A stretch of DNA of 64,000 bases from Aliiglaciecola sp. M165. GTDB taxonomy: Bacteria > Pseudomonadota > Gammaproteobacteria > Enterobacterales > Alteromonadaceae. Of the stretch, positions 24,129 to 44,353 are shown piece after piece (the stretch's first letter is position 1; each line of letters starts with the position of its first letter). The stretch is taken from positions 62,001 to 126,000 of the forward strand of contig NZ_VKKH01000009.1 in NCBI RefSeq assembly GCF_007197995.1, in the 5' to 3' direction. The notes beneath the pieces were generated by a model. That model made no database searches. It had not been told where the DNA came from and saw only the letters and a program-made list of their open reading frames with translations. The translations under genes were made by a program, and so were the position numbers.

Positions 24129-24404
24129 ATGTATATTGTTGTGTCGATTGCGATTTTGGCAACCATGGTTTTAGCCTTAACGAGGGCACTTATGGGCCCA
24201 AGTGTTTACGATAGAGTTTTAGCTGCTAACGTTTTTGGAACCAAGACCGTGATGTTGTTATCGGTCACTGCATTTCTTTATGGTCGACCCGATTTTCTGG
24301 ACTTAGCGTTGGCCTATGCCCTAGTGAATATGGTTGGCATATTAGCAGTGCTTGAGTTTTTCCAAAAACGTTCGAGGCGAAAAGCGGAGCTTGAAGATGA
24401 TTGA
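24129..24404 (+). CDS. mnhF: Na+/H+ antiporter subunit F (MnhF/MrpF)
   Basis: A 91-residue, three-helix subunit. The family motif RALMGPSVYDRVLAANVFGTK lies at about 19-39 (shown here as in the sequence, start RAL), followed by PDFLDLALAYALVNMVGI. Overlaps mnhG by 8 bp, indicating translational coupling. Confidence 0.92.
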   Translation: MYIVVSIAILATMVLALTRALMGPSVYDRVLAANVFGTKTVMLLSVTAFLYGRPDFLDLALAYALVNMVGILAVLEFFQKRSRRKAELEDD

Positions 24405-24741
24405 TATTCTAATAGATGTCTTCAGTTGGGTATTACTGATCCTAGGTGGCGTTTGTGTTTTAATCGGCGGTATCGGTGGTTTACGCCTACCTAATTTTTA
24501 TACAAGAATTCACGCTGCCAGCTTAACGGATACAATGGGCGCAATCTTGATTTTTGTGGGTATGATGCTGCAATCGGGGCTAACGCTGGCGACGTTAAAG
24601 TTGTTTGCAATCATGCTATTTTTGCTGCTAACCGGCCCCACTGCGACCTACGCTTTAGCAAATGCGGCACTGCTTTCGGGTTTAAAGCCGGATACTGGCA
24701 GTAACCATGATGAAGTCGAAAAAGAGGAACCAGCAGAATGA
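24397..24741 (+). CDS. mnhG: Na+/H+ antiporter subunit G (MnhG/MrpG)
   Basis: A 114-residue, three-helix subunit. The motif GGIGGLRLPNFYTRIHAASL (about 25-44) followed by TDTMGAILIFVG is diagnostic for MnhG. The start at 24397 is inside the end of mnhF; an earlier in-frame start would be buried in mnhF. The C-terminal tail is acidic. Its stop overlaps the next gene's start by 4 bp (ATGA). Confidence 0.92.
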   Translation: MIDILIDVFSWVLLILGGVCVLIGGIGGLRLPNFYTRIHAASLTDTMGAILIFVGMMLQSGLTLATLKLFAIMLFLLLTGPTATYALANAALLSGLKPDTGSNHDEVEKEEPAE

Positions 24742-25724
24742 TTTTTGTTTTTGCGATTTTTCTTCTGAGTCTATTGGTCATCACTTCCATCGCCATCGTG
24801 CGCACGACTAACTTGTTTGTTGCAGTGATGTTGACGTCTATCTTTAGTTTTTTGATGGCCGCAAACTTTTTTATACTGGATGCGGCCGATGTCGCCTTAA
24901 CTGAGGCTGCGGTCGGAGCCGGCGTGACAACAGTAATATTTCTTTGCGCCTTGGCATTGACCGGTGAGCGTGAAAAGCCACGGATAAATGGGCGAAAAAC
25001 AGCCCGTGTCGCTGTCGCCATCCTTGCGTCGCTGATGATTTATGCCACCTTTGATAAGCCGCGCTTAGGCGACCCTGACGCCCCCGTTCACCAACACATC
25101 GCACCTTGGTACATAGAAAAAACGACCGAACATATGGATTTTCCTAATGTTGTGACGGCCATATTAAGCAGTTTCCGTGGATACGACACCTTAGGCGAAG
25201 TCTTTGTAGTGTTTGCCGCGTGTATCGGTGTGTTATTTATTTTGGGCGTACCGCCTCCTGCCCAAAAACGTCTCAACAAAGTGGTAGAACAAAATAAAGG
25301 GCTGCGGCATCACCTCATTCCCCAAGTTGTGGGGAGGCTAGTAATCCCTTTTATCGTGCTTTTTGGTCTGTATACACAATTCCATGGGGAATATGGCCCT
25401 GGTGGAGGATTTCAAGCAGGGGCAATTATTGCTACAGGTATTATCCTTTATGCCTTGCTTGAGGGAGAAAACAAAGCATTGCAAGCGGTTCCTCGCTCAG
25501 TGCTGTTAGGCATGGTTATAGGTGGTGCACTGCTTTTTGGTAGTGTTGGCGTGATATGTATGTTTATGGGTGGTAACTTTTTGGAATATTCCGTTTTATC
25601 AGCCGATCCTATTTGGGGACAGCAGTTGGGTATCCTGGTCATTGAAGCAGGTGTAGGTATGGCGGTATGTGGTGCGCTTTTATCCATATTTCATGCTTTT
25701 GCAGCGCGTGAGAATGTGTCATGA
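24738..25724 (+). CDS. mnhB: Fused DUF4040 (MbhD-like)/MnhB antiporter subunit
   Basis: A 328-residue membrane protein combining pieces that are separate or differently attached in other Mrp complexes. Residues about 1-75 match the MbhD/DUF4040 domain (TEAAVGAGVTTVIFLCAL). Residues about 85-175 resemble the MbhE/MrpA C-terminal region (RGYDTLGEVFVVFAA). Residues about 195-325 form the MnhB domain (FGLYTQFHGEYGPGGGFQAG). In canonical Mrp the first two parts are the C-terminus of MrpA. Coupled on both sides by 4-bp ATGA overlaps. Confidence 0.88.
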   Translation: MIFVFAIFLLSLLVITSIAIVRTTNLFVAVMLTSIFSFLMAANFFILDAADVALTEAAVGAGVTTVIFLCALALTGEREKPRINGRKTARVAVAILASLMIYATFDKPRLGDPDAPVHQHIAPWYIEKTTEHMDFPNVVTAILSSFRGYDTLGEVFVVFAACIGVLFILGVPPPAQKRLNKVVEQNKGLRHHLIPQVVGRLVIPFIVLFGLYTQFHGEYGPGGGFQAGAIIATGIILYALLEGENKALQAVPRSVLLGMVIGGALLFGSVGVICMFMGGNFLEYSVLSADPIWGQQLGILVIEAGVGMAVCGALLSIFHAFAARENVS

Positions 25725-26080
25725 AGTTGCTGGAGTTATTGGGATATTTTAATTACTGGGTGTTCGCTATCGTTCTGATGGTGGGGTTGTATGCCGTGAT
25801 TAGCAAAGCTAATTTGATCAAAAAATTAATTGGGCTTTCCATCTTCCAGTCTGCGGTTTTTTTGATGTACATCACCATGGACAAAGTGGAAGGCGGTACC
25901 GCGCCTATCATTCAAAAGGGCGTTGAAAATCAGATATTTTCCAACCCATTACCGCAGGTGTTAATACTGACAGCTATTGTTGTAGGCGTGTCAACGCTTG
26001 CGTTGGGTTTAGCCATGGTGGTGCGTATCAAAGAAAGTTACGGCACTATTGAAGAGAACGAAATATTGGACGCTGACTAA
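25721..26080 (+). CDS. mnhC: Na+/H+ antiporter subunit C (MnhC/MrpC, NuoK-like)
   Basis: A 119-residue, three-helix subunit homologous to NuoK. Motifs: NYWVFAIVLMVGLYAVISKANLIKKLIGL region (about 9-37) and PLPQVLILTAIVVGVSTLALGLA (about 72-95), which are quoted here in parts of the helix boundaries. Followed 5 bp later by the first D-type subunit. Confidence 0.9.
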   Translation: MKLLELLGYFNYWVFAIVLMVGLYAVISKANLIKKLIGLSIFQSAVFLMYITMDKVEGGTAPIIQKGVENQIFSNPLPQVLILTAIVVGVSTLALGLAMVVRIKESYGTIEENEILDAD

Positions 26081-26085
26081 CGATT

Positions 26086-27576
26086 ATGGATTTAATAGCA
26101 CACCTTCCTGCGCTTCAAGTAGTAATTCCAATGTTATCCGCTCCACTAATGGTGTTGTTGCAACCACGAGGGTTAGCATGGGCCGGAGCCACAGTCGTTG
26201 CGCTAGTGAGCTTCGCAATGGCCGCCACTTTGGCAATTGGCGTATTAAATGGATTGACACCTCAATACTTTATGGGGGGATGGCCTGCTCCGTTTGGAAT
26301 AGCACTATCAGTTGACGCCTTCAGCGCAGTCCTGCTTTTGATAGTGACAGGTGCCAGCGCCGGCGCACTTCTTGCTGCCAAACCCAGTGTTGATCAACAG
26401 GTTGAAGAAGAGCGTCAACCACTGTTTTATGCCGCTTGGATGCTCGCCATGGCAGGGCTAATTGGTATTGTCGTTGCGGCAGACGCCTTTAATATTTTTG
26501 TGTTTATGGAAATATCTTCGTTGGCGAGTTACATCTTAATTGCAGGTGGACCGGATAGAAGAGCACTGCCTGCTGTTTTCAAATACCTCACTATGGGAAC
26601 CATTGGCGCGACGTTTTATCTCATCGGTGTGGGCCTGATTTATATGATGACGGGCACGCTCAATATAGAGGATATGCAAAATAGGATTGGTGATGTAACC
26701 GACATCAATCCAATTTTAGTCGCGGCCGGTTTTATTACGATTGGACTAGCGCTCAAAGCAGCTGTGTTTCCATTGCATGTATGGGTTCCGAATGCCTACA
26801 CCCATGCCCCTCACATGGTTACCGTATTTCTTGCAGCCTGTGCAACTAAGGTTTCGCTATATGTATTGATTAAATTTGACTATCTGGTTTTTCAATCCAG
26901 ATTGGTCGACCATGACATGCAATTTGCACTATTCCTGATGCCGATGGCCATTTTAGGGATCTTAATCGCCTCTGCGGTGGCGATGTTTGAGGGGCATTTG
27001 AAAAGACTTCTCGCTTCATCATCTATTGCGCAGATTGGTTACATTTTACTTTGTGCCAGCTTTATCAGCACCCTAGGGTTGAGCGCCAGCGTAGTGCATT
27101 TGTTTAATCACGCCTTAGCGAAAGGCGGGTTATTTTTAGCTGTAGCGTGTCTGGCCTATCATTATCGCGATTTACGCTTAGACCAATTAGGCGGTGCGTC
27201 AACTAAAATGCCTTGGACATGTGCAACCGTGGTAATTTGTGGTTTGAGCCTGATTGGCATTCCCGGCACTGCAGGATTCATTAGCAAGTGGCTGCTCATC
27301 AGTGCCTCTTTGCAAATTGGCCCATGGGGTTGGTTTTTAGTGGCTATTATTTTGCTTAGTTCATTGATGGCTGTTGCTTATGTTTGGCGCATCATTGAGG
27401 CCCTTTATTTTAAAGCGCCTGTTGAGGGAGTAGGCCCACAGTCAGAAGCTCCGATACAATTATTGGCTGTCACTATGTTGGTTGCTGCGTTGAACCTATA
27501 TTTTGGCTTCTTTCCTCAGGTTCCGCTTGAGCTTGCCACTGAAGCTGCGGGAATGTTGCTGGAGGGTGCGCAATGA
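26086..27576 (+). CDS. mnhD: Na+/H+ antiporter subunit D, first copy (NuoL/M/N-like)
   Basis: A 496-residue polytopic subunit of the proton-translocating NuoL/M/N family. The key charged residues of an active channel are present: Glu142 in FMEISSLASY, Lys224 in LALKAAVFPLHVW and Lys255 in ACATKVSLYV. The family signature PNAYTHAPHMVTVFLA is intact. It overlaps the second D-type gene by 4 bp. Confidence 0.92.
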   Translation: MDLIAHLPALQVVIPMLSAPLMVLLQPRGLAWAGATVVALVSFAMAATLAIGVLNGLTPQYFMGGWPAPFGIALSVDAFSAVLLLIVTGASAGALLAAKPSVDQQVEEERQPLFYAAWMLAMAGLIGIVVAADAFNIFVFMEISSLASYILIAGGPDRRALPAVFKYLTMGTIGATFYLIGVGLIYMMTGTLNIEDMQNRIGDVTDINPILVAAGFITIGLALKAAVFPLHVWVPNAYTHAPHMVTVFLAACATKVSLYVLIKFDYLVFQSRLVDHDMQFALFLMPMAILGILIASAVAMFEGHLKRLLASSSIAQIGYILLCASFISTLGLSASVVHLFNHALAKGGLFLAVACLAYHYRDLRLDQLGGASTKMPWTCATVVICGLSLIGIPGTAGFISKWLLISASLQIGPWGWFLVAIILLSSLMAVAYVWRIIEALYFKAPVEGVGPQSEAPIQLLAVTMLVAALNLYFGFFPQVPLELATEAAGMLLEGAQ

Positions 27577-29039
27577 TCGCTGAAAACGCCATATTAACCG
27601 CGATAGTTGTACCATTACTCGGCGCCCTGTTGATTGCCTTAGGCGGACGCTTTGGGCCAAACATTCGTGAAGCGGTAACAGCAATTACTTCGATTTCCCT
27701 GATATTTGTAGTTTGGGGGATGCTACCCGCGTTAATTGCCGGAGAGCGGCCAGCCGTTGAAGTGTCTCAAGTATTACCTGGGCTGAGTATTGCATTTAAA
27801 GTTGAGCCCTTGGGTATGTTGTTCGCAGCCTTGGCGTCTGGACTATGGTTGATAAATTCAATTTATTCCGTCGGCTACATGCGCGGGAATAAAGAGAAAA
27901 ACCAAACGCGCTTTTACACCTGTTTTGCCCTTGCTTTGAGCGCTACGATGGGCGTCGCGTTTGCAGGCAACTTATTTACTTTGTTCTTATTCTACGAGTT
28001 GTTAACGCTTTCAACCTATCCTCTGGTTTCTCACAAAGGCGACGAAGCCACTGTAAAATCCGCCAGGATCTACCTAGGTGTTCTGCTGAGTACGTCTATC
28101 GGCTTATTCTTGCCAGCGATTATTTGGACCTACACTGCAGCGGGTACGGGTGATTTTGTCAGTGGAGGCATTCTCGCAGGAAAACTCAGTGATACGTCAG
28201 TTGGCTTGCTACTAGGGTTATTTGTATTTGGTATCGGTAAGGCCGCTGTGATGCCCGTACACAAATGGTTACCTGCAGCCATGGTCGCCCCCACACCGGT
28301 CAGTGCATTGTTACACGCGGTAGCGGTAGTTAAAGCTGGCGTCTTTGCCATCACAAAAATTATTGTTTATATCTTTGGTGTTGACTTTTTATTCGATTCA
28401 CCAAATTCAGGCTGGTTGTTATACGTAGCTGCATTCACCATTATCACCGCGAGTGTGGTTGCTTTGCGGCAAACCAATATAAAACGCTTGTTAGCCTATT
28501 CTACTATTGCACAATTGTCTTACGTTGTGATGGCAGCCGCGATACTTAAACCTCTGGCAGAAGTCGGCGCGGCTATTCACATGGTGGCTCATGCTTTTGG
28601 GAAAATCACACTGTTTTTCGCAGCTGGGGCAATTTACGTGGCCGCTAAGAAAACAGAAGTGCATCAATTGCGTGGTATCGGTCGAAGAATGCCGTGGACG
28701 ATGACAGCATTTACAATTGGCGCTCTAAGCATGATCGGTGTTCCACCTACCGCAGGCTTTGTATCTAAGTGGTACATTCTGGCTGGTGCATTTGAAGCCA
28801 ACAATCTCGTTGCTGTATTTACCATTATCGCGAGTACTGTGCTCAATGCTGCGTATTTTCTACCACTCATTTATATGGCTTGGTTTGAGAAAGAACAAGA
28901 GGGTGCTAAAGAACACGGTGAAGCGCCATTTATGGCTGTTTTTGCCCTGTGCGTCACAGCTTTATTAACCCTGGCCTTCTTCTTATTCAACGGACCGGTC
29001 ATTGAATTAGAAAGCCAAGTAGTTAAGGGGCTGAATTGA
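27573..29039 (+). CDS. Na+/H+ antiporter D-type subunit, second copy
   Basis: A 488-residue NuoL/M/N-family subunit. It has Glu142 (FYELLTLSTYP), Lys223 (GKAAVMPVHKWLPAAM) and Lys254 (VVKAGVFAI), plus the classic APTPVSALLHAV loop, so it resembles canonical NuoM/MrpD or the NuoL-like part of MrpA. It probably supplies a second ion channel. It is followed 2 bp later by a small two-helix gene. Confidence 0.9.
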   Translation: MIAENAILTAIVVPLLGALLIALGGRFGPNIREAVTAITSISLIFVVWGMLPALIAGERPAVEVSQVLPGLSIAFKVEPLGMLFAALASGLWLINSIYSVGYMRGNKEKNQTRFYTCFALALSATMGVAFAGNLFTLFLFYELLTLSTYPLVSHKGDEATVKSARIYLGVLLSTSIGLFLPAIIWTYTAAGTGDFVSGGILAGKLSDTSVGLLLGLFVFGIGKAAVMPVHKWLPAAMVAPTPVSALLHAVAVVKAGVFAITKIIVYIFGVDFLFDSPNSGWLLYVAAFTIITASVVALRQTNIKRLLAYSTIAQLSYVVMAAAILKPLAEVGAAIHMVAHAFGKITLFFAAGAIYVAAKKTEVHQLRGIGRRMPWTMTAFTIGALSMIGVPPTAGFVSKWYILAGAFEANNLVAVFTIIASTVLNAAYFLPLIYMAWFEKEQEGAKEHGEAPFMAVFALCVTALLTLAFFLFNGPVIELESQVVKGLN

Positions 29040-29041
29040 TC

Positions 29042-29359
29042 ATGAATGAAGAAGAAAAACAACTACATTGGCTAGTAAGGCCCTCGACAATTCGCAAACT
29101 CTGGATTGGTTCCAGCATTATTTTGGCATTGACCGTATTGACACAAACAGTGATATACGTAAAAGGATACTTCGGCGTTGATGCGTGGTTTGGATTTGGT
29201 GCGGTTTATGGATTTGTCAGCTGTTTACTGATGGTGCTAGTGGCAAAATTACTTGGGTTTTTCTTAAAACGTCCTGAAAACTATTACGATGAATCAGAAC
29301 AACCGGTTAACAACCAAAACTCAAAAAGTGCTTTAGAGGAAGACAACAATGCCATATGA
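29042..29359 (+). CDS. Small two-helix membrane protein within the Mnh operon
   Basis: A 105-residue protein with two hydrophobic segments (about 20-40 and 55-75), the first beginning IGSSIILALTVLTQTVIYVKG, and a charged C-terminal tail. I do not recognise a family. The ATG at 29042 follows AGGGG in the previous gene's end. Its 3' end overlaps the third D-type gene by 11 bp. The tight packing suggests it is an accessory subunit of the complex. Confidence 0.75.
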   Translation: MNEEEKQLHWLVRPSTIRKLWIGSSIILALTVLTQTVIYVKGYFGVDAWFGFGAVYGFVSCLLMVLVAKLLGFFLKRPENYYDESEQPVNNQNSKSALEEDNNAI

Positions 29360-31058
29360 AATGTTGTCTCCTGCCCTTATTCTTCTTATCGCTGCTGCGT
29401 TAATCGGCTTGGTTAAAGGTCATGCTAGAACAGCAGTCATTTTAATCGCTCCTCTGATTACCTTGTGGGCCATATGGCAAGTGCCAGACGGTGTACAAGG
29501 AACAGTAAAGTTTCTTTCTTATCACGTTGAGCCAGTTGAGGGCAGTCCCTTAAGGCGATTGTTTGCAACGGTATTCGCGATCATGGTGTTTGTAGGTGGC
29601 CTGTACGCATTTCGGATCGCGCGTTGGTACGAACTTGCTGCCGCTTATGCGTATGCAGCGGGTGCTATTGGCGTTTGTTTCGCTGGTGATCTGATCACAC
29701 TCTTTTTGTATTGGGAGTTGATGGCTCTGTTCTCTACGATTGTTGTTTGGTGTGGCGGTACACCGGGTGCGCGTACTGCTGGTATCAGATATGCCATTAT
29801 GCATTTAATGGGCGGTGTCATACTGAAAGTCGGTATTGAGGGTGTTGTTATCGGTACGGGCTCAATTCAAATTCAAGCAATGTTGGCGACAGATTTTAGT
29901 ACATGGATGATACTAATTGGTATTTTAATAAACGCTGCAGCCCCCCCAGTGTCTGCCTGGTTATCGGATGCCTATCCAGAATCCAGTGCAACCGGGTCGG
30001 TCTTTTTATCAGCGTTTACCACAAAAACAGCCGTACTGGCTTTAATCTTATTATTCCCTGGAGAACCGGTTTTAATTGGCTTGGGCCTCTTTATGGTGAT
30101 GTACGGTATTATTTATGCGCTACTGGAAAACGATGTGCGGCGAATACTGGCATATTCCATTGTTAACCAGGTGGGATTCATGGTGGTTGCCGTAGGTATA
30201 GGGACAGAAATGGCGTTAAATGGCGCCACTGCACATGCCTTTGCCCATATTGTTTATAAAGCCTTGTTGTTTATGAGTGCGGGCGTGGTGATTTACCGCA
30301 CTGGCAAAAACAAATGTATCGAGTTGGGTGGGTTGTTTCGTACCATGCCAATAACCGCAACGTGCGGTATTATTGGCGCTTTAGCGATTTCCAGCTTCCC
30401 ATTAACGTCGGGATTTACCACTAAAAGTATGATCTCTCAGGCAGCTGTAGACAGCAATTTGATGTGGGTTTATCTTGGCTTAACCGCAGCATCTGCGGGG
30501 GTATTTTTGCATGCAGGAATTAAATTCCCTTGGTTTGTATTTTTTCAAAAAGATTCCGGTTTGAGGCCCAAAGATGCTCCATGGAATATGGGGTTAGCCA
30601 TGGCCATTTTTGCTGGTTTGTGTATTTTACTCGGTGTATTCCCTGAATTGTTATACGGTTTACTGCCTTATGCCGTTGATTATGAACCTTACACTGCTGG
30701 TAAAGTGTTGTTTTACTTGCAGCTCTTATTGTTCTCTGGCCTCGCGTTTTTTGTCCTTCTGCCGTTGATGAAGCGCACCATGACCATTAGTCTGGATACA
30801 GATTGGTTGTGGCGTCGACTGGCGTTTTCTATATTGAAGATTATTGAAAATGGCTTTAGCTCGTTAAACGCTGTCATAGAACGGCAAAGAATTCGCTCAC
30901 AGCACTTTTTGCACGGTATTGCCGTGCGTTACCTTGGCCAACCGCATACTGCGGATAGTAAAGAAAGAGGCATATTTGCACGATCTTGGCGAGTGGGTAG
31001 CACTGCTTTGTGGATAGCGATTTTGTTATCTGCTTATGTATTACTCTACTACTTGTAA
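29349..31058 (+). CDS. Na+/H+ antiporter D-type subunit, third copy (altered key lysine)
   Basis: A 569-residue NuoL/M/N-family subunit, the longest of the three, with an extra C-terminal region (about 470-569) ending in a hydrophobic helix. Glu123 (YWELMALFST) and Lys226 (AFTTKTAVLAL) are kept. The position of the central TM7 lysine reads INAAAPPVSAWL, so Asn195 replaces Lys and Ser replaces the usual His. Proton conduction through this subunit may differ from the other two. It is the last gene before a clear hairpin terminator. Confidence 0.88.
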   Translation: MPYEMLSPALILLIAAALIGLVKGHARTAVILIAPLITLWAIWQVPDGVQGTVKFLSYHVEPVEGSPLRRLFATVFAIMVFVGGLYAFRIARWYELAAAYAYAAGAIGVCFAGDLITLFLYWELMALFSTIVVWCGGTPGARTAGIRYAIMHLMGGVILKVGIEGVVIGTGSIQIQAMLATDFSTWMILIGILINAAAPPVSAWLSDAYPESSATGSVFLSAFTTKTAVLALILLFPGEPVLIGLGLFMVMYGIIYALLENDVRRILAYSIVNQVGFMVVAVGIGTEMALNGATAHAFAHIVYKALLFMSAGVVIYRTGKNKCIELGGLFRTMPITATCGIIGALAISSFPLTSGFTTKSMISQAAVDSNLMWVYLGLTAASAGVFLHAGIKFPWFVFFQKDSGLRPKDAPWNMGLAMAIFAGLCILLGVFPELLYGLLPYAVDYEPYTAGKVLFYLQLLLFSGLAFFVLLPLMKRTMTISLDTDWLWRRLAFSILKIIENGFSSLNAVIERQRIRSQHFLHGIAVRYLGQPHTADSKERGIFARSWRVGSTALWIAILLSAYVLLYYL

Positions 31059-35451: not shown

Positions 35452-35623
35452 CGGTCGATAATTAAATCGTTTTGATAGCAATCAATGCATTTAATCGCCT
35501 ATCGATGCTCTTTGGCCTGAAAGTCACTATTATTTTAGATTCGATAAAGTAATGTATATTGAATATATGAAACGTTATAAGTGAACCTGCAGCGTTATGC
35601 TGAACTCACAAGGATTGATAGTA

Positions 35624-36697
35624 GTGAAAAAATATTTAATTGTATTGCTGGCTGTTACTTATGCCGTTATTTCTCATGCATCTATAGCCAAGACCTATGA
35701 AAAACAGAGGCCACCCAGACAACTAACGGATGAACAGGCAGCCAATGCCGCAGCGAACTATAAAAAGTATTGCACCTTATGCCATGGTGAAAACCGCGAG
35801 GGCCATGTCAATGATCATGCCCCTTCTTTAAGAAGCAAAAGTTTGTTTGAATCCGGTGTTCCTCACGCCATTTTAAGGCCTCTGTCATATGGTCGAGAAG
35901 GCACCCCTATGGGTGGTTATCTTGACGAAGTGGGCGGTCCGTTAACATTGGACGAAGCATGGGATTTAACTTACTGGTTGTTTTGGCAGTCAGGGGCCGA
36001 GCGCATAAAGCTCTCAGAAGACCCTGTAAAGGGTGATGTAAAACGTGGGGAGCAGATATATCAACAAAACTGTGCCAGTTGCCACGGTCAAGACGGCGAA
36101 GGGATCACCGCTCCGGCATTGGGCAATCAGTCTGCATTGGCCCACAATAAAGACGAATTTATCCGTTATGCGATAGAAAAAGGTCGTCAAGATACACCAA
36201 TGCAGGCTTTTGAAAATGTCTTATCTGCAGAAGATATCGACAACGTCACAGCGTTTATTCGCAGTAAAGCCAGTGGTTGGAAACAAGAAAAAATGCCTTT
36301 GCGGCCAATTCCAACTCCGGATCAATATGTCGTCAACCCGCAAAATGAAAACCCTGACTGGGAATTGAGCGAAGGCAGATATGTTACCTCTGAGCAGCTC
36401 TACGCTGCGATGCAAACGAAAAAGAAAATGGTGTTGTTAGACACTCGTGTTACATCCGTCTGGCAAAGGGCGCACATTGAAGGCTCTATCCCCTTCCCCT
36501 ACTACAGTAATCTGGAGAACCGCGTTAAAGACTTGCCAAGAGATGCACAAATCGTCGCATACTGCTCTTGCCCTAGAGCGGCTGCTGACTATATCGTGGA
36601 ACAGCTTGAGGATATGGGTTTTGATAATACTGCGGTGTTATACGAAGGCATATTTGGCTGGATGAATAAGGGCTTTCCTGTCACCCGTTCTGAATAA
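35624..36697 (+). CDS. Diheme cytochrome c fused to a rhodanese domain
   Basis: An exported protein of 357 residues from the GTG at 35624, chosen for the AAGGA 9 bp upstream (an ATG at 35597 in frame lacks a site). After the signal peptide come two cytochrome c domains with CTLCH (about 50-54) and CASCH (about 150-154). A C-terminal rhodanese domain follows (about 255-350) with the active loop YCSCPRAA. Periplasmic sulfane-sulfur transfer coupled to electron transfer is plausible. The fusion is unusual. A strong terminator follows. Confidence 0.85.
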   Translation: MKKYLIVLLAVTYAVISHASIAKTYEKQRPPRQLTDEQAANAAANYKKYCTLCHGENREGHVNDHAPSLRSKSLFESGVPHAILRPLSYGREGTPMGGYLDEVGGPLTLDEAWDLTYWLFWQSGAERIKLSEDPVKGDVKRGEQIYQQNCASCHGQDGEGITAPALGNQSALAHNKDEFIRYAIEKGRQDTPMQAFENVLSAEDIDNVTAFIRSKASGWKQEKMPLRPIPTPDQYVVNPQNENPDWELSEGRYVTSEQLYAAMQTKKKMVLLDTRVTSVWQRAHIEGSIPFPYYSNLENRVKDLPRDAQIVAYCSCPRAAADYIVEQLEDMGFDNTAVLYEGIFGWMNKGFPVTRSE

Positions 36698-39306: not shown

Positions 39307-39723
39307 TCAAGCAGCTTGCACATTAGCAGCGTCTTTCATCACGGATGCCAAGGTGACATAAGTCTTGGTCCAAGCAGCTTCAACCTCTTGATCGAAGGCA
39401 TCGCCTAACCCTTGACCTAGTGTCCATAACAAGGCTTCTCCTACAGTATCGTAGTGTTCATCTTCAACACCATAGTCGACATGTCGTTTCCCCAGAGATT
39501 GCACAACAGGAACTAGCGCATCAAGATCATTTAAGCTATTCACTGCCATCCCGATCATTTTCATCAATTTCGCGCCCTGTTCCGTCATATCACCTTTAAA
39601 GAGTGGCTTTAAGTTTGGATCTAGCTCAAAAAGTTTTGCATAGAACAATTCAGCCGCTTTTGGAGCAATAGGCGCTACCTGCATAAAGGTGTTTTGCACC
39701 AATTTAATTTCATGTGGAGTCAT
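39307..39723 (-). CDS. Single-domain globin (Vgb/flavohemoglobin-like)
   Basis: A 138-residue globin without a reductase domain. The globin fold is recognisable from the helix-A start LVQNTFMQVAPIAPKAAELFY, proximal His region GKRHVDYGVEDEHYDTVGEALLW and GDAFDQEVEAAWTKTY. It is the last gene of the redox operon, 17 bp after the cytochrome c5 gene, with GAGGAAAACCTA before the ATG. Cytoplasmic NO dioxygenation or oxygen binding is inferred; a reductase might be the operon's FAD protein. Confidence 0.9.
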   Translation of the reverse strand: MTPHEIKLVQNTFMQVAPIAPKAAELFYAKLFELDPNLKPLFKGDMTEQGAKLMKMIGMAVNSLNDLDALVPVVQSLGKRHVDYGVEDEHYDTVGEALLWTLGQGLGDAFDQEVEAAWTKTYVTLASVMKDAANVQAA

Positions 39724-39740
39724 TAGGTTTTCCTCATTTT

Positions 39741-40058
39741 TTATTGACTGTTGATCACCATGTATTCAACAGCTTGTTTCACTTCGTCGTCAGTCAGATC
39801 AGGGTTTCCGCCTTTTGCCGGCATATCCCCCCAGCCATTTAATGCGTGCTCGTACAAAGACGCCTTGCCTCTAGCAATGCGTTTTTTCCATGCGTTTACG
39901 TCACCAAAAACCGGGGAGCCAGCCAATCCAACCTCATGGCAAACTTTGCAGTTGTTTACCCATACCTGTTCGCCTGGATGTGGTGTTTTTTCTGCACATC
40001 CGGTGACTAACATGCATACAAGCAGAGCAACAAGCGATTGAAATTTAAGTAGTTTCAC
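39741..40058 (-). CDS. Cytochrome c5-like lipoprotein
   Basis: A 105-residue monoheme cytochrome. The signal peptide ends in MLVTGC, a lipobox, so it is membrane-attached. The heme site is CKVCH, with a probable axial Met in GWGDMPAKGG. The start is GTG, 1 bp after the stop of the DUF3365 gene, so translation is coupled. A likely electron shuttle between the multiheme cytochrome and a terminal partner. Confidence 0.88.
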   Translation of the reverse strand: MKLLKFQSLVALLVCMLVTGCAEKTPHPGEQVWVNNCKVCHEVGLAGSPVFGDVNAWKKRIARGKASLYEHALNGWGDMPAKGGNPDLTDDEVKQAVEYMVINSQ

Positions 40059-40059
40059 C

Positions 40060-40644
40060 TTAATTACCTACTGGCACTCGAATCACAACGCCGCCCATCA
40101 CTTCGCCAATTTTAAAATCAGTGCGAGGGGAATCTTTGTGTTCGTTATGACAGGATGTACAGGCCGGTGAAACCGCTACGTCGGCATAAACCGCAGTGAA
40201 GTAATTCACGTCGCCTAATTTTTCTTGACCATAAAAGTTTTGGCCTGGGTTATCTTTGATAAACTCCAAACCTTCCTTTTCGATTGGGGTTTTGGGCGCA
40301 TTTTGCTTATTTACTGGCCATAATGACTGCAATGAGTAAGTAAACTCGTCAGTGATCTCAGCGACACCTTCAGCGCCGTATCGGAACATTTGCGCAGGCA
40401 ACGGGGCTCCCTGATCGAGATCTTCCCAATGTTCATCAGGCTTAATAAATGCGCCTTTATTTGGGCCGAGTCTTTGTACAATTAGCTTGGTGTAATTAGT
40501 TCTGTCTGACTTCATTACCGCAAACAAAGAGTCGGTAAACACTTTGGGTTCGATGCCAGCTTGCTCAGTTTCCCCGCCACAACTGACAACAAGCGTGGTG
40601 GCGCCTAAAGCAGCTACGAGCGCTATAGATTTTGCGTATTTCAT
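40060..40644 (-). CDS. DUF3365 (Tll0287-like) c-type heme protein
   Basis: A 194-residue exported protein with a DUF3365/Tll0287-like sensor-type domain carrying one heme site, CTSCH, near the C-terminus (SPACTSCHNEHKDSPRTDF). The signal peptide ends near VVSCGG, possibly a lipobox. The start at 40644 is set by AGGAGATACAC. Related domains bind heme and act in sensing or electron transfer; here, inside a cytochrome operon, electron transfer is favoured. Confidence 0.85.
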   Translation of the reverse strand: MKYAKSIALVAALGATTLVVSCGGETEQAGIEPKVFTDSLFAVMKSDRTNYTKLIVQRLGPNKGAFIKPDEHWEDLDQGAPLPAQMFRYGAEGVAEITDEFTYSLQSLWPVNKQNAPKTPIEKEGLEFIKDNPGQNFYGQEKLGDVNYFTAVYADVAVSPACTSCHNEHKDSPRTDFKIGEVMGGVVIRVPVGN

Positions 40645-40677
40645 GTGTATCTCCTGTTTCACTTTTGGTTTCTCGCG

Positions 40678-42021
40678 TTATTGAGCTCGCTTTAACGACA
40701 TATCGATGCTCGGAATATGCTGACTTGGTGTGCCAGAAAAATTGTTTTGAATTAAATTAGGATCGGCTAAGGCGTCGATTGAAAACGACAAGCTATGGCA
40801 GCTCATGCAAGTCGTTCTGATCATTTTTTCGTTAGGGCGTAACGTTGCATTTTGATTATGTTGCACCAGCGTATTTTGCTGACCATGGTGCTCAAACTCC
40901 ATTCGGGGGAGGTGGCAAGTAGAACAGCTAACCGCTTGATTTTCTTCGATTTGACCGGCTTCAAACTGCAGCCAGGTTTGCCCGTGTGGAGAGCTAAGAA
41001 ATGCTTCACTGTGTTCATCAGAATGGCAGCTAAGGCAACTGTTAACTTTAGCCTCCTGAACATTTACCTGATGGGGATCATGGCAAGATGAACAGGTTAA
41101 ACTCGTCTCATGATTCGTTTGATTAAACGCCAAGTGAGTTTGTCGTTGAATGGCCAAATTCGGTGTCATCGCTGGCAAGTCATTGGCTAAGCGCATCCCA
41201 TGTTTGCCTTGCAAAAAGGTGCTTACTTCGTTCTCATGACACGAGGCGCATACTTGGTGCGTCGGTTTATCCTGCCATGATGCTGCGCTACCATGACAAG
41301 CATTGCAGCCCACATTTGCGGCACTGTGAGAAGAAGACAGCCAATCATCATGTATGGATGAAGCGGCAGTGAGTTTGTCTTCTGGCACATCCATAGCAGG
41401 CAATTGTTCAGGCAAATCCGTTAATGACGAGACATAGCGCTTAATATCCGTATCAGCTATCCCCTTTGTCATATCTAACCACTTGCCCTTCGCGTGTTTC
41501 ACCAAGAAATCTTCATACAAGGCTCGGTTGTCATGAAAATTGTGGCACCCGGAACTTGCACAGGTTTGAAACTCCATTCCTTCGTGAGAAGGACGTTCTT
41601 GGGCAATATCTTGATGACAATGAAAACAAAAATCCTCAGGTAAACTCACTCCCATCGGGCGCATCAAATCTGGGTTATGTTCGGTATGACAAGAAACACA
41701 GTAGCGAGCATCGACTTTTTCTAACCGATCAATATTTCGAGGGTCGGTAAACTTGGATTTGGGATGAGAGTCTTGTGCTTCTTTCAACTCTTGTCCATGG
41801 CACGAAATACACGCATTTTGTAGTACGTCCTGGCCACCAAATGCTGATTCATGACACGCAGTGCATTGCAATTCGATTTGATAATGACCGTAGCTAGTTT
41901 CGCCTATTAGCAGCTCTGGTTTCTGCGCTTGTACAAACATTTGATTTGCGTAAAACGTAGCGATACCAATGGCTAGAATTAACCAGGTTAGCCACATATA
42001 TCTGCGTGTTCTTTGGGTCAT
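40678..42021 (-). CDS. Eleven-heme cytochrome c
   Basis: A 447-residue protein with an N-terminal membrane anchor (about 9-30) and eleven heme-binding motifs: ten CxxCH (His57, 75, 112, 136, 243, 262, 314, 333, 370, 409) and one CASSGCH with four residues between the cysteines (154-160). The arrangement resembles cytochrome c3/doubled-CXXCH proteins. It lies between the FAD/membrane reductase and the DUF3365 gene in one operon and is the natural periplasmic acceptor from the membrane heme domain. A long linker without hemes spans about 165-230. Confidence 0.9.
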   Translation of the reverse strand: MTQRTRRYMWLTWLILAIGIATFYANQMFVQAQKPELLIGETSYGHYQIELQCTACHESAFGGQDVLQNACISCHGQELKEAQDSHPKSKFTDPRNIDRLEKVDARYCVSCHTEHNPDLMRPMGVSLPEDFCFHCHQDIAQERPSHEGMEFQTCASSGCHNFHDNRALYEDFLVKHAKGKWLDMTKGIADTDIKRYVSSLTDLPEQLPAMDVPEDKLTAASSIHDDWLSSSHSAANVGCNACHGSAASWQDKPTHQVCASCHENEVSTFLQGKHGMRLANDLPAMTPNLAIQRQTHLAFNQTNHETSLTCSSCHDPHQVNVQEAKVNSCLSCHSDEHSEAFLSSPHGQTWLQFEAGQIEENQAVSCSTCHLPRMEFEHHGQQNTLVQHNQNATLRPNEKMIRTTCMSCHSLSFSIDALADPNLIQNNFSGTPSQHIPSIDMSLKRAQ

Positions 42022-42034
42022 ATTCCGTATGCCC

Positions 42035-44002
42035 CTAAAAGTAATAGACTGAGAGAATATGGAACGCTAAAAGAATGGGTAACGGCCAAAATGTGACAAT
42101 ATGCGACACCACGAGGTAACGTTTAATACGTTTGAAACCCGGTGTGACAACTTGTCCTTCATAGGCCGCAACAACAGCTGATGCAATCCCAACCAAAATG
42201 ATCAGAACAAAGTTAATGGCTAATAAACGATTTAGGCCGTTTCCAAAAGAGATGCCGGTATGAATAAACAACGTACTCATCCCCAACGCAGCTAGCGTGA
42301 CATGGGCAAAGCGCCATACATCAAAACTTAGCCATTGCACCTGCTTTACGCGTTTCTTCAGGCTTAGTAACAAACTCAGCGAAATTAGCCCAAGAATGGT
42401 AAAACCTGATATTTGACGTGCGAGACTATCGGTCCACAACCAATCCCAACTTGCCTGCTGAACAGATTGAGTGGGCGCAATCGCAGGCATCCACAACAAT
42501 GTGCAGGCAATAACAAAGGCGGTAAAGGTGGCGATTAGAAGTGCTTTTTTGACCGGTTGTTTTGTTTGCGGTTGATTCAGCGCAGATTGAACAAGTGGCT
42601 TACAGGTTCCACATACCGAGGAGACACCTAAAGATGCTTGCAGCGATTCAAAATTACATTCGCCTTTGTCTAGCTCTTGGCGAATTTGCGCCACAGAAAC
42701 TTGCTGACAGTTACACACCAACGTGTCATCTGGGTAGCTTAATATGTGTTTTTCTTGAGACCCAAATAAATACCCCGTGGTGGAGAAACGCAATAGATGC
42801 CAAGGGTAAATGTAGCGGCTTTCATCGATCGCAGCCTGAACTTCCTTAATTTCGCTCCACTGACCAATCGCCACTGCACCGACCAACTTACCTCTAGAAA
42901 ACAATAATTTTCGATAAACGTCTTGTTTACGGAAGGTCAAAGTGTTGGTTATTTGATTAGCATATTCATCGCTAACTTTTCCCATTGAGAATACAGACAG
43001 CCCCAACACTTTGAGCTCCGTCATCAATTTGGAGCCGCGGTAGGTGCTATTCCCACCACACAGATTGCCGGCCAAGGTGCTTGCTTGCTCAAGCCCTGGG
43101 GCAACTAACCCATATACTTGTCCTTCATAGTCGGCACACTCACCGATAGCATAGATATCTTCTTGGCTGGTGCGCAGCATTTCATTGACTTGAATGCCTC
43201 GTCGAACACTAATTTTTGCGTCAAATGCAAGTTGCGTGTTGGGCGTTATTCCAGTAGTAAAAATCACAGTGTCGCAAAGTAAATGCTCGCCAGTACTCAG
43301 CTTGACACTCTCAACCTTGTCTTCACCGATAATCTCTAACACCTGGCAATTTAAACAAAACTCAATTCCGTTACTTTCTGCGTAGGCTTGAACCATTTGA
43401 CTTGCCGTCAAATCCAACTGCCGGTTCATCAGCGCGGCGCTGTGCTGGACAACTGAAACCTTGGTGGAATACTTGAGCATCGACTTGGCTGTTTCAAGTC
43501 CTAGCAGTCCTCCACCAATCACCACAGTGTGGCGACTACGGGTTTTTCTGGCATACAACGATTGAGCATCATGCATGTCTCTAAATCGATAAACTCCGGT
43601 TTTTTGGTTACCACTTATATTTGGAATGAACGCACTTGACCCCGTTGCCAACACGAGAACATCGTAGTGATGAACGCCGCCAAACTGGTCTTCGATCGTT
43701 TTGTTTTGATGATCGATGTTTACGATTTTGCAATGAAACTGCTGTAATAATGAGGGGTGCTCTTCAAGCGAATTAGTCAAAGCGTCTATGCCTAATTCAC
43801 CGCTTAAAAATGAAGACAAAAGCACTCGATTGTAGGGTTGAAAAGGCTCTTCACCAAAAATAGTGATATGCCCTGGGTAACCATTACCTATTAACTGACG
43901 AACGAAATGCACACCAACAGGCCCATTGCCAACAATGACAATTTTGGTACAGGAAGAACGGCTATCTTGCTGCACAATGTGAGTATGTTCGTTGATGCCC
44001 AT
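42035..44002 (-). CDS. FAD oxidoreductase - [2Fe-2S] BFD - four-His membrane domain fusion
   Basis: A 655-residue electron-transfer protein. Residues about 18-400 form a NirB/rubredoxin-reductase-like FAD domain (VGNGPVG at 24-30, VIGGGLLGLE at 161-170, AIGECADY). Residues about 428-472 form a BFD-type [2Fe-2S] domain with Cys430, Cys432, Cys464 and Cys467. Residues 485-655 form a membrane domain with His567/His581 and His634/His648, each pair 14 apart as in ferric-reductase-like diheme cytochrome b. First gene of the operon, with AGGAATATCAA before the ATG. It lacks the siroheme part of NirB, so it is not itself a nitrite reductase. Confidence 0.85.
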   Translation of the reverse strand: MGINEHTHIVQQDSRSSCTKIVIVGNGPVGVHFVRQLIGNGYPGHITIFGEEPFQPYNRVLLSSFLSGELGIDALTNSLEEHPSLLQQFHCKIVNIDHQNKTIEDQFGGVHHYDVLVLATGSSAFIPNISGNQKTGVYRFRDMHDAQSLYARKTRSRHTVVIGGGLLGLETAKSMLKYSTKVSVVQHSAALMNRQLDLTASQMVQAYAESNGIEFCLNCQVLEIIGEDKVESVKLSTGEHLLCDTVIFTTGITPNTQLAFDAKISVRRGIQVNEMLRTSQEDIYAIGECADYEGQVYGLVAPGLEQASTLAGNLCGGNSTYRGSKLMTELKVLGLSVFSMGKVSDEYANQITNTLTFRKQDVYRKLLFSRGKLVGAVAIGQWSEIKEVQAAIDESRYIYPWHLLRFSTTGYLFGSQEKHILSYPDDTLVCNCQQVSVAQIRQELDKGECNFESLQASLGVSSVCGTCKPLVQSALNQPQTKQPVKKALLIATFTAFVIACTLLWMPAIAPTQSVQQASWDWLWTDSLARQISGFTILGLISLSLLLSLKKRVKQVQWLSFDVWRFAHVTLAALGMSTLFIHTGISFGNGLNRLLAINFVLIILVGIASAVVAAYEGQVVTPGFKRIKRYLVVSHIVTFWPLPILLAFHILSVYYF

Positions 44003-44021: not shown

Positions 44022-44058
44022 AAAGGCGCCATACTGCCTGGAGCAGTATGGCGCCTTT
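44022..44058 (-). promoter_or_regulatory. Leader hairpin of the redox operon
   Basis: AAAGGCGCCATACTGC (44022-44037) and GCAGTATGGCGCCTTT (44043-44058) form a perfect 16-bp stem with a 5-nt loop. It lies 19 bp upstream of the FAD gene start, in a divergent intergenic region where no gene ends. On the minus strand it is followed by TTTTGCGTTTT and then the ribosome site, the shape of an intrinsic terminator placed in a leader. The rest of the gap to 44353 is unremarkable. Confidence 0.75.
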
Positions 44059-44353
44059 GCCGTTTATACTGAATTAAAGTTCTGAGTGTCCTTTTAAAAT
44101 AACCTTAGCAATACCTAAGCCAAATTAAATATTATTTTATTTTCAATTACTTATTGATTTTTAAGTATGGTTCTAGAGCAGGTTTCGCACAAAATATGTG
44201 CAGGTAAGCACTGATTGGGGTAGTCGTTTCACGATTCCAGAACCTTTTAAGTCACTATAGAATGAGACACTTATAACTTATGTTAAAAACTTGCTATCGC
44301 AGGTAAAAATATTCAGTAATATCAAAGTCACTTGATGGCCAAACGAGAGACAG

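Follow-up and report, generated by a model that had tools for sequence, protein, structure and literature searches.

Assimilatory nitrate reduction is commonly treated as a cytoplasmic process (NasA, NirBD). The release of NasS-NasT by nitrate is known (accessible parts of PMC3795266, PMC6759348 and PMC5424462). In Bradyrhizobium, according to the accessible part of PMC4724949, NasC makes nitric oxide (NO) and the single-domain haemoglobin Bjgb counters it. Another relevant group, the sCache_heme family, is described in PMC12889525; in the part of that paper available, the fused sCache_heme protein examined is a tight NO binder, whereas the stand-alone one bound NO weakly and looked redox-like. 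Here we analyse a five-gene operon of Aliiglaciecola sp. M165, located on contig NZ_VKKH01000009.1 in a stretch of 64,000 nt (hereafter the window) of the 4.6-Mb host genome. An initial annotation, made from the sequence of the window, had read the operon as a trans-membrane electron conduit with a globin.

We propose that this operon encodes a conduit that is induced during nitrate assimilation and protects against nitrite and NO in the cytoplasm as well as in the periplasm. The probability that we assign to this statement as a whole is about 0.5. The link of such a conduit operon to the nitrate-assimilation regulon is new with respect to the literature searched.

Results

The operon is conserved as a unit

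The five minus-strand open reading frames (ORFs), which we call g1 to g5, and the elements of their leader are listed in Table 1. The gaps of 13, 33, 1 and 17 bp given in the initial annotation are correct (33 bp applies when g3 starts at its ATG), and both Pfam and NCBIfam agree with the domain content that it assigned to all five proteins. Also as stated there, no nitrite, nitrate or metal reductase was seen among the ORFs next to the operon; nirB-nirD-nasA is located elsewhere in the host genome.

Table 1. Genes and leader elements of the operon (window positions)
Feature	Position	Strand	Description
g1	42035..44002	-	655 aa; NirB/NorW-like FAD + Rubredoxin_C + BFD [2Fe-2S] + membrane domain
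g2	40678..42021	-	447 aa; eleven-haem cytochrome c (10 CXXCH + 1 CX4CH)
g3	40060..40662	-	200 aa (GTG start; first ATG, 40644); Tll0287-like/sCache_heme single-haem-c, lipobox
g4	39741..40058	-	GTG start; small cytochrome c, lipobox
g5	39307..39723	-	Flavohaemoglobin-type single-domain globin
NtrC-like dyad TGCAC-N7-GTGCG	44186..44202	-	One mismatch to TGCAC-N7-GTGCA
sigma54-type -24/-12 box TGGCTTAGGTATTGC	44108..44122	-	Strict pattern
ANTAR-type P2 hairpin GGC-AAAGGC-GCC	44050..44061	-	3-bp stem, hexaloop A1 + G4; overlaps 5' arm of terminator
Terminator-like hairpin	44022..44058	-	17 bp stem, then TTTTGCGTTTT, directly ahead of g1

Related loci were collected in two ways. A search of a class sample of 369 genomes with the membrane domain of g1 gave matches in 29 genomes, the host among them; 27 loci obtained from this sample and two from a separate search make up the 29 loci chosen by g1. 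A g2 profile run against the named genome collection yielded 475 relatives, and all counts on 80 loci given below refer to the best 80 of these 475. In 78 of the 80 g2-chosen loci g1, g2 and g3 have the same order and strand; the exceptions (L104 and L151) are cut by contig ends. g3 is present in 79 loci. All three genes are present, again in this order, in 26 of the 29 g1-chosen loci, two of which (L065 and L069) have a g1 without the NirB-like flavin adenine dinucleotide (FAD) part. As for the remaining three, L059 has a fragment match to g2 without g3, L070 lacks both genes and L072 is cut. Homologues of these genes thus occur together and are not scattered, as the single-pathway reading of the initial annotation implied, and the order conserved in 78/80 and 26/29 loci indicates that the operon arrangement is not due to chance.

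The leader of g1 resembles those of nitrate-assimilation genes in the host

The elements found in the leader (Table 1) point to control by nitrogen limitation together with nitrate/nitrite. When the host genome was searched with the pattern GGCAAAGNNGCC, and with that pattern alone, 24 sites were found compared to 5 for the reversed control. Four of the 24 overlap a stem of at least 14 bp followed by a T-run; a fifth site qualified with a stem of just 8 pairs. These four switch sites precede an NrtA homologue, a porin-like ORF located behind nasT-nasS, nirB-nirD-nasA, and g1. The only ANTAR protein of the host is NasT (ORF C27:178533-179147; response regulator plus ANTAR), and a strict sigma54 box is present upstream of nasT. 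In two relatives from the host's family, L193 and L192 (the latter apparently identical with the L102 contig), the leader contains a terminator as well as a loose sigma54 box. The hairpins at the base of these terminators, GGC-ATTGCA-GCC and GGC-ATTGTA-GCC, were read by eye and were not listed by the P2 pattern scan. The same leader-element scan listed nothing for L194 and L044.

Leaders, neighbours and genomes of other carriers

The leader set consists of 73 sequences (72 loci and the window), some of which are near-duplicates, so that the leader counts are not all independent. The strict sigma54 box TGGC-N7-TTGC is present in 30 of the 73 leaders (the window and 29 of the 72 others), while 20 sets of random windows averaged 1.75 and never exceeded 5. 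Hairpins having an ANTAR hexaloop (AxxGxx, stem of at least 5) were found 28 times, in 23 leaders that do not include the one of the window; the antisense control gave 6 in 6 leaders, and 50 shuffled sets gave a mean of 3.2 and a maximum of 8. One or the other of these elements is present in 44/73 leaders. NtrC-like dyads occur in 8 leaders if up to one mismatch is allowed, versus 1.7 expected, and in 37 if up to two are allowed, versus 17 and 20 for shifted spacings. Several leaders display, by eye, the succession P1, P2, terminator, T-run and ribosome site, and a simple hairpin scan with a loose T count placed terminators ahead of g1 in 11 of the 73. There is no perfect NorR-type site (GTCA-N7-TGAC) in these leaders; seven have one with at most one mismatch, a count for which there is no random-window control.

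The Rfam narK RNA (RF03032) scores over its cut-off (44.7 bits) before g1 of Pseudomonas benzenivorans (L147), and by coordinates it also precedes g1, below the cut-off, in L143 (38.7) and L118 (28.7). The carrier genomes of 50 of the 80 loci were tested for narK and NirB. Matches to narK at E<=1 are present in 33 of these 50 genomes, mostly weak and away from g1.

ORFs belonging to the NrtA, NrtB or NasT families are present in 23 of the 80 loci (NrtA, NasT and the porin were checked by Pfam, one member each; NrtB and NasS were named by recognition). In L134, NirB and a molybdopterin enzyme with a BFD domain (nasA-like) adjoin the operon. In L137, a Bryobacterales locus outside these 23, a molybdopterin-type fragment (by recognition) and an MFS transporter lie before g1 (here the membrane domain only), g2 and g3; a full NirB lies on the other strand of the same locus by converted coordinates, if contig C1 is the chromosome of that locus. 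A further family was observed near the operon and nrt genes in three loci (L099:12507-13463, also L132); its L099 member, a possible sensor, matches dCache below the curated cut-off.

The carriers also differ from other genomes in their content of ANTAR proteins. Subtracting the host and three genomes with weak matches (G115, G341 and G380; E >1e-12) from the 29 leaves 25 operon-bearing genomes, 21 of which encode an ANTAR protein versus 92 of the 343 others, the three weak genomes being counted among the latter (Fisher p = 1.6e-8). In 10 of the 25 this protein is encoded at most about 4 kb from the membrane-domain match. Judging from leaders, neighbours and co-occurrence, the operon very probably belongs to the nitrate regulon. 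The possibility that it is a substitute for NirBD was ruled out: NirB scores over its cut-off in 44 of the 50 carrier genomes, most of the six without it being draft metagenome bins by title, and the operon therefore does not stand in for NirBD.

g1 joins a NirB-like input module to a four-His membrane domain

In agreement with the NirB likeness seen initially, the top NCBIfam match of g1 is NirB, over the FAD/BFD half only. This match (TIGR02374; 369.7 bits, cut-off 578.35) covers NirB positions 1-476 and ends at g1 residue 486. Pfam recognizes Pyr_redox_2, Rubredoxin_C and Fer2_BFD, and by NCBIfam the FAD domain is NorW-like. The siroheme domain NIR_SIR (PF01077), which is matched in the NirB of L134, is not matched in g1. 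In the AlphaFold model (predicted local distance difference test, pLDDT, 88.1; predicted template modelling score, pTM, 0.74) the FAD part matches ferredoxin reductases, for example BphA4. The g1 alignment contains 48 sequences (the window and 47 of the 72 usable loci), and the BFD cysteines 430, 432, 464 and 467 are invariant in all 48.

Only four His are found in g1 past residue 480. They are at positions 567, 581, 634 and 648, are invariant in 29/29 and 48/48 sequences and form two pairs, each spaced 14 residues. The membrane domain has about five predicted helices, and its four His lie in two helix pairs at a helix-spanning spacing, as in a two-haem membrane cytochrome b; we take it to be similar to the two-haem helices of the ferric-reductase type. 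Sequence searches for relatives of known structure gave none for this domain. g1 is a NirB-like module in which the siroheme half is swapped for a four-His membrane domain, and these His would hold two b haems. The initial annotation had proposed an ordered path leading from reduced nicotinamide adenine dinucleotide (phosphate) (NAD(P)H) to small c-type carriers. Domain content and conservation as one unit bear this out; the four invariant His suggest that the membrane domain binds haem.

The membrane domain was also seen in other settings. A protein of 863 aa in L070 (6833-9424, + strand) has two cNMP-type domains, a BFD domain and an FNR-type reductase part (by recognition) together with the same four-His domain; to judge from its domains, it is a different reductase wired to a g1-type membrane module. 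In L137 (9454-9987) and L069 (7965-9236) the membrane domain occurs without the NirB-like FAD part, beside g2 and g3; these FAD-less proteins consist of 177 aa alone, or have an unrelated N-terminal part.

g2 is an eleven-haem cytochrome

The eleven haems reported initially for g2 are valid if the CX4CH site (CASSGCH) is counted beside the 10 CXXCH motifs, and all 11 motifs end in H. In the alignment of g2 (71 sequences: the window and 70 of the 80 loci), 20 His (those of the 11 motifs and nine others) are invariant in 71/71, and two more are present in 70/71. Since one partner His is available per haem, g2 is most simply viewed as a wire of eleven bis-His haems, with the reservation that this pairing is deduced and that one invariant His could be catalytic. 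A helix predicted at residues 3-29 was taken as membrane anchor. Several multihaem families of Pfam match g2; the one for MtrC/MtrF-like domains II/IV is above cut-off (3.7e-9). The C-terminal part matches the octahaem nitrite reductase profile (E 2.8e-8 for the whole sequence and 2.2e-5 for the best stretch), local profile similarity to NrfA is also seen, and the fold comparison gave a weak match to HAO (E 7.5e-3; template modelling score 0.31). The AlphaFold model is of moderate quality (pLDDT 78.5, pTM 0.77).

Two small haem-c proteins follow

g3 matches the Pfam family Tll0287-like (PF11845, formerly DUF3365; 2.5e-17). Its alignment comprises the 80 sequences of the window and 79 loci, with uncurated start codons. 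The haem motif residues C168, C171 and H172 are kept in 80/80, and 47 positions are invariant, many of them charged or aromatic (D53, R54, Y57, R64, E77, R94, H175, R195). Outside the haem motif, C28 (86%) alone among the Cys residues is conserved in at least half of the sequences, and it lies inside the lipobox; 7/80 have a Cys in the stretch between residue 60 and the haem motif, and 57/80 show the lipobox pattern. A sequence search gave no relatives of known structure for g3. g4 has a Cytochrome_CBB3 match in Pfam and a CXXCH motif. It displays an MP-x-x-G/A motif in 50/50 sequences and a lipobox pattern in 34/50, and Met79 is likely to be its second haem ligand.

Two kinds of globin occupy the last place

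g5 has a Globin match in Pfam (2.4e-18), and no other host protein matches PF00042 at E<=0.001; the one NCBIfam match of g5 is to the N-terminal part of flavohaemoglobin. It has no reductase domain, and Y28, Q49 and H81 are invariant in 41/41 sequences. These residues presumably correspond to B10, E7 and F8, i.e. distal Tyr, distal Gln and proximal His. According to neighbour clustering a globin is present in 69 of the 80 loci, being of the flavohaemoglobin type in 43 and a truncated haemoglobin in 26 (one member tested: PF01152). In L063, one of the g1-chosen loci, the globin precedes g1. A 2Fe-2S/FAD reductase, one member of which was tested (Fer2, FAD_binding_6, NAD_binding_1), lies beside the truncated haemoglobin in 23/26 loci and beside the flavohaemoglobin type in 0/43. 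Among 25 leaders of truncated-haemoglobin loci, 11 (e.g. L087, L088, L090, L094, L105, L144) have a sigma54 box without an ANTAR hairpin and two have both, which suggests that these loci may be a variant under sigma54-only control. The initial annotation, which these results support in part, had overlooked the signs of a nitrate regulon and the alternative truncated haemoglobin at the place of the globin.

Distribution and other features of the window

By title, the g2-chosen loci are mostly from Gammaproteobacteria; Betaproteobacteria, one Nitrospirota, one Bryobacterales and one Filomicrobium record are also represented. Carriers available in culture include Pseudomonas benzenivorans DSM 8628, Alcanivorax, Catenovulum agarivorans and Marinobacter. 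Within the host's own family g2 is uncommon, being present in 3 of 195 other genomes, and a full-length g1 was not seen among the matches listed in 8 same-genus genomes. No g2 relatives were found in viral contigs and plasmids. Base composition, considered as a sign of recent transfer, was uninformative (42-45% G+C in operon windows and 41-46% around them). Elsewhere in the window, the ORF at 35597-36697 (+) encodes a fusion protein of two cytochrome c domains and a rhodanese domain, and a run of genes for Mnh/Mrp-like Na+/H+ antiporter subunits (by recognition) occupies 24352-31058 (+).

Discussion

The domain content suggests both the topology and the choice of partners, along a line from NAD(P)H through FAD, 2Fe-2S, b haems and eleven c haems to lipoprotein haems. 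NAD(P)H would reduce the FAD of g1, and electrons would pass through the BFD [2Fe-2S] centre to two b haems in the membrane domain, from there to the periplasmic, membrane-anchored g2, and on to the lipoproteins g3 and g4. We consider it probable that electrons flow outward from the cytoplasm in this way. NO or nitrite may be the terminal acceptor, with g3 as the most likely substrate-facing haem. On the cytoplasmic side g5, for which g1 may be the electron donor, would handle NO, converting it to nitrate by dioxygenation if O2 is present. Expression would be driven by the sigma54 promoter under nitrogen limitation (NtrC), and the antiterminator NasT would relieve attenuation with nitrate/nitrite, jointly at nrtA, the porin gene, nirBD-nasA and the operon; both NasT and NtrC are thus presumed to interact with the operon leader. 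A bolder version, in which the b haems driven by the NirB paralogue and the eleven-haem wire feed a g3 that itself reduces NO or nitrite while the globin clears cytoplasmic NO, would make the operon an unrecognised branch of nitrate assimilation; this we regard as rather doubtful.

Several observations weigh against a protective conduit of the nitrate regulon. Neither a sigma54 box nor an ANTAR hairpin is present in 29/73 leaders, and NrtA-, NrtB- or NasT-family ORFs were not seen in 57/80 loci within the available DNA. Among the four host leaders with a switch site, only that of g1 has the strict sigma54 box; those of nrtA and the porin gene have a looser one (ATGC for TTGC), and the nirB leader has neither. 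No canonical P1 hairpin was found upstream of P2 in the window leader. The match of this leader to the narK RNA scores 24.1 bits (cut-off 43.2), the best of nine in the host genome; three other Rfam families, also below their cut-offs, out-score narK when the leader is searched alone, and weak narK matches occur in 13/14 control genomes at E<=10. The Rfam narK match was consequently rejected as sole proof for the window leader, being too weak. As to the proteins, g4 was not seen in 31/80 loci and the globin not in 11/80, some contigs being cut in both cases. g2 has no CXXCK motif of the kind that marks the catalytic, open-site haem in the NrfA/octahaem nitrite reductase superfamily, and no active site for N-oxide reduction was identified. 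In Bradyrhizobium, according to the accessible parts of the reports, deletion of bjgb mattered only under limiting O2 (PMC4724949), and under denitrifying conditions bjgb expression rose, rather than fell, in a nasT deletion (PMC6759348); the parallel with Bjgb is therefore not exact. Finally, the literature searched contained no published experiment on the operon.

Other functions for the operon were weighed against these data. The frame implied by the initial annotation is a general export of electrons, extracellular or respiratory, to a metal or electrode and unrelated to nitrogen. A multihaem wire, lipoprotein cytochromes and a four-His membrane domain would suit it, as would the MtrC/MtrF-like match of g2 (3.7e-9, above the Pfam cut-off) and the relatives found in bins labelled Gallionellaceae. 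Given the nitrogen-type cis elements, a leader type in common with nirB and nrtA, the nitrate-uptake or NasT-family genes adjoining in 23/80 loci, and the lack of an outer-membrane porin-cytochrome partner in the operon, we hold this to be quite unlikely. A new periplasmic reductase of nitrite, NO or hydroxylamine, fed by NAD(P)H and yielding N2O or ammonium at a catalytic haem of g3 or g2, is somewhat easier to accept, though still unlikely. The strong conservation of g3 (47 invariant positions, with C28 as the only widely conserved Cys outside the motif), the C-terminal match of g2 to octahaem nitrite reductase, and the NO binding described for related signalling sCache_heme proteins in the accessible part of PMC12889525 argue for it, but every g2 haem has a partner His available, the match to the HAO fold is weak, the stand-alone sCache_heme protein described in that part was weak for NO and redox-like, and with NirB over cut-off in 44/50 carriers NirBD is not replaced.

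It is also conceivable that g1 is chiefly a globin reductase, i.e. the other half of a split flavohaemoglobin, with the periplasmic cytochromes serving to buffer electrons. This would explain why a dedicated reductase accompanies the single-domain globin in 0/43 loci and the truncated haemoglobin in 23/26, and it would fit the NorW-like FAD domain of g1, NorW being a minor donor to the globin Cgb (accessible part of PMC4724949). It is made improbable by the presence of g3 in 79/80 g2-chosen loci compared to 69 for the globin, by g2 and g3 following g1 in 26/29 g1-chosen loci, and by the retention of g1 in truncated-haemoglobin loci that have their own reductase. A reductase of ferric iron or another metal, supplying iron for the haem- and Fe-S-rich enzymes of nitrate assimilation, would agree with the leader in common with nirB-nasA and with the presumed likeness of the four-His domain to ferric-reductase-type two-haem helices. 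The sole hint of iron uptake among the recurrent neighbours is, however, a TonB-receptor-like family in 8/80 loci (by recognition), and we regard this function as very improbable.

Judged by title and the start of the abstract, no paper in the literature searched, which left subscription journals mostly outside, describes such an operon, and the accessible parts of PMC9230427, PMC10734462 and PMC3820574 contain nothing on one. With 475 g2 relatives in one genome collection, the operon is widespread. If co-regulation and electron export are both true, nitrate assimilation would extend into the periplasm, probably to deal with nitrite/NO. A role would then be suggested for proteins so far defined by their domains only: the g1 fusion, the eleven-haem cytochrome and stand-alone DUF3365 proteins. 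A conduit induced during nitrate assimilation predicts that nitrate induces the operon in a nasT- and rpoN-dependent manner.

The operon shares parts with several known systems. The leaders of g1 have the sigma54 box, hexaloop hairpins and terminator in common with narK RNA (RF03032) and NasR- and NasT-type leaders; the window's own match to narK RNA is below cut-off, and the literature searched does not link leaders of these kinds to such an operon. With the BFD-containing assimilatory enzymes NirB (large subunit of NADH nitrite reductase) and NasA/NasC, g1 shares the FAD, Rubredoxin_C and BFD input, and the leader switch is common with host nirB-nirD-nasA. Unlike NirB, g1 has a four-His membrane domain and no siroheme NIR_SIR half, and its score is below the NirB cut-off. 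The narK-bjgb-flp-nasC operon of Bradyrhizobium, as described in the accessible parts of PMC4724949 and PMC6759348, shares a single-domain globin of the Hmp/Cgb/Vgb type, nitrate assimilation linked to NasS-NasT and a flavoprotein donor, but as far as described there it is without a membrane conduit, a multihaem cytochrome or an sCache_heme protein. g3 is a stand-alone PF11845 domain with a CXXCH motif, as in the Tll0287/sCache_heme proteins (accessible part of PMC12889525); it differs from these proteins in being of the lipoprotein type and in belonging to an operon with a dedicated electron supply, and a Cys axial ligand as in Tll0287 is not evident, the lipobox Cys being the only candidate. 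Local profile similarity relates g2 to multihaem cytochromes of the MtrC/MtrF, DmsE and NrfA/ONR/HAO types, from which it is set apart by its eleven haems including a CX4CH site, the absence of CXXCK, its N-terminal helix and the company of g1 and g3.

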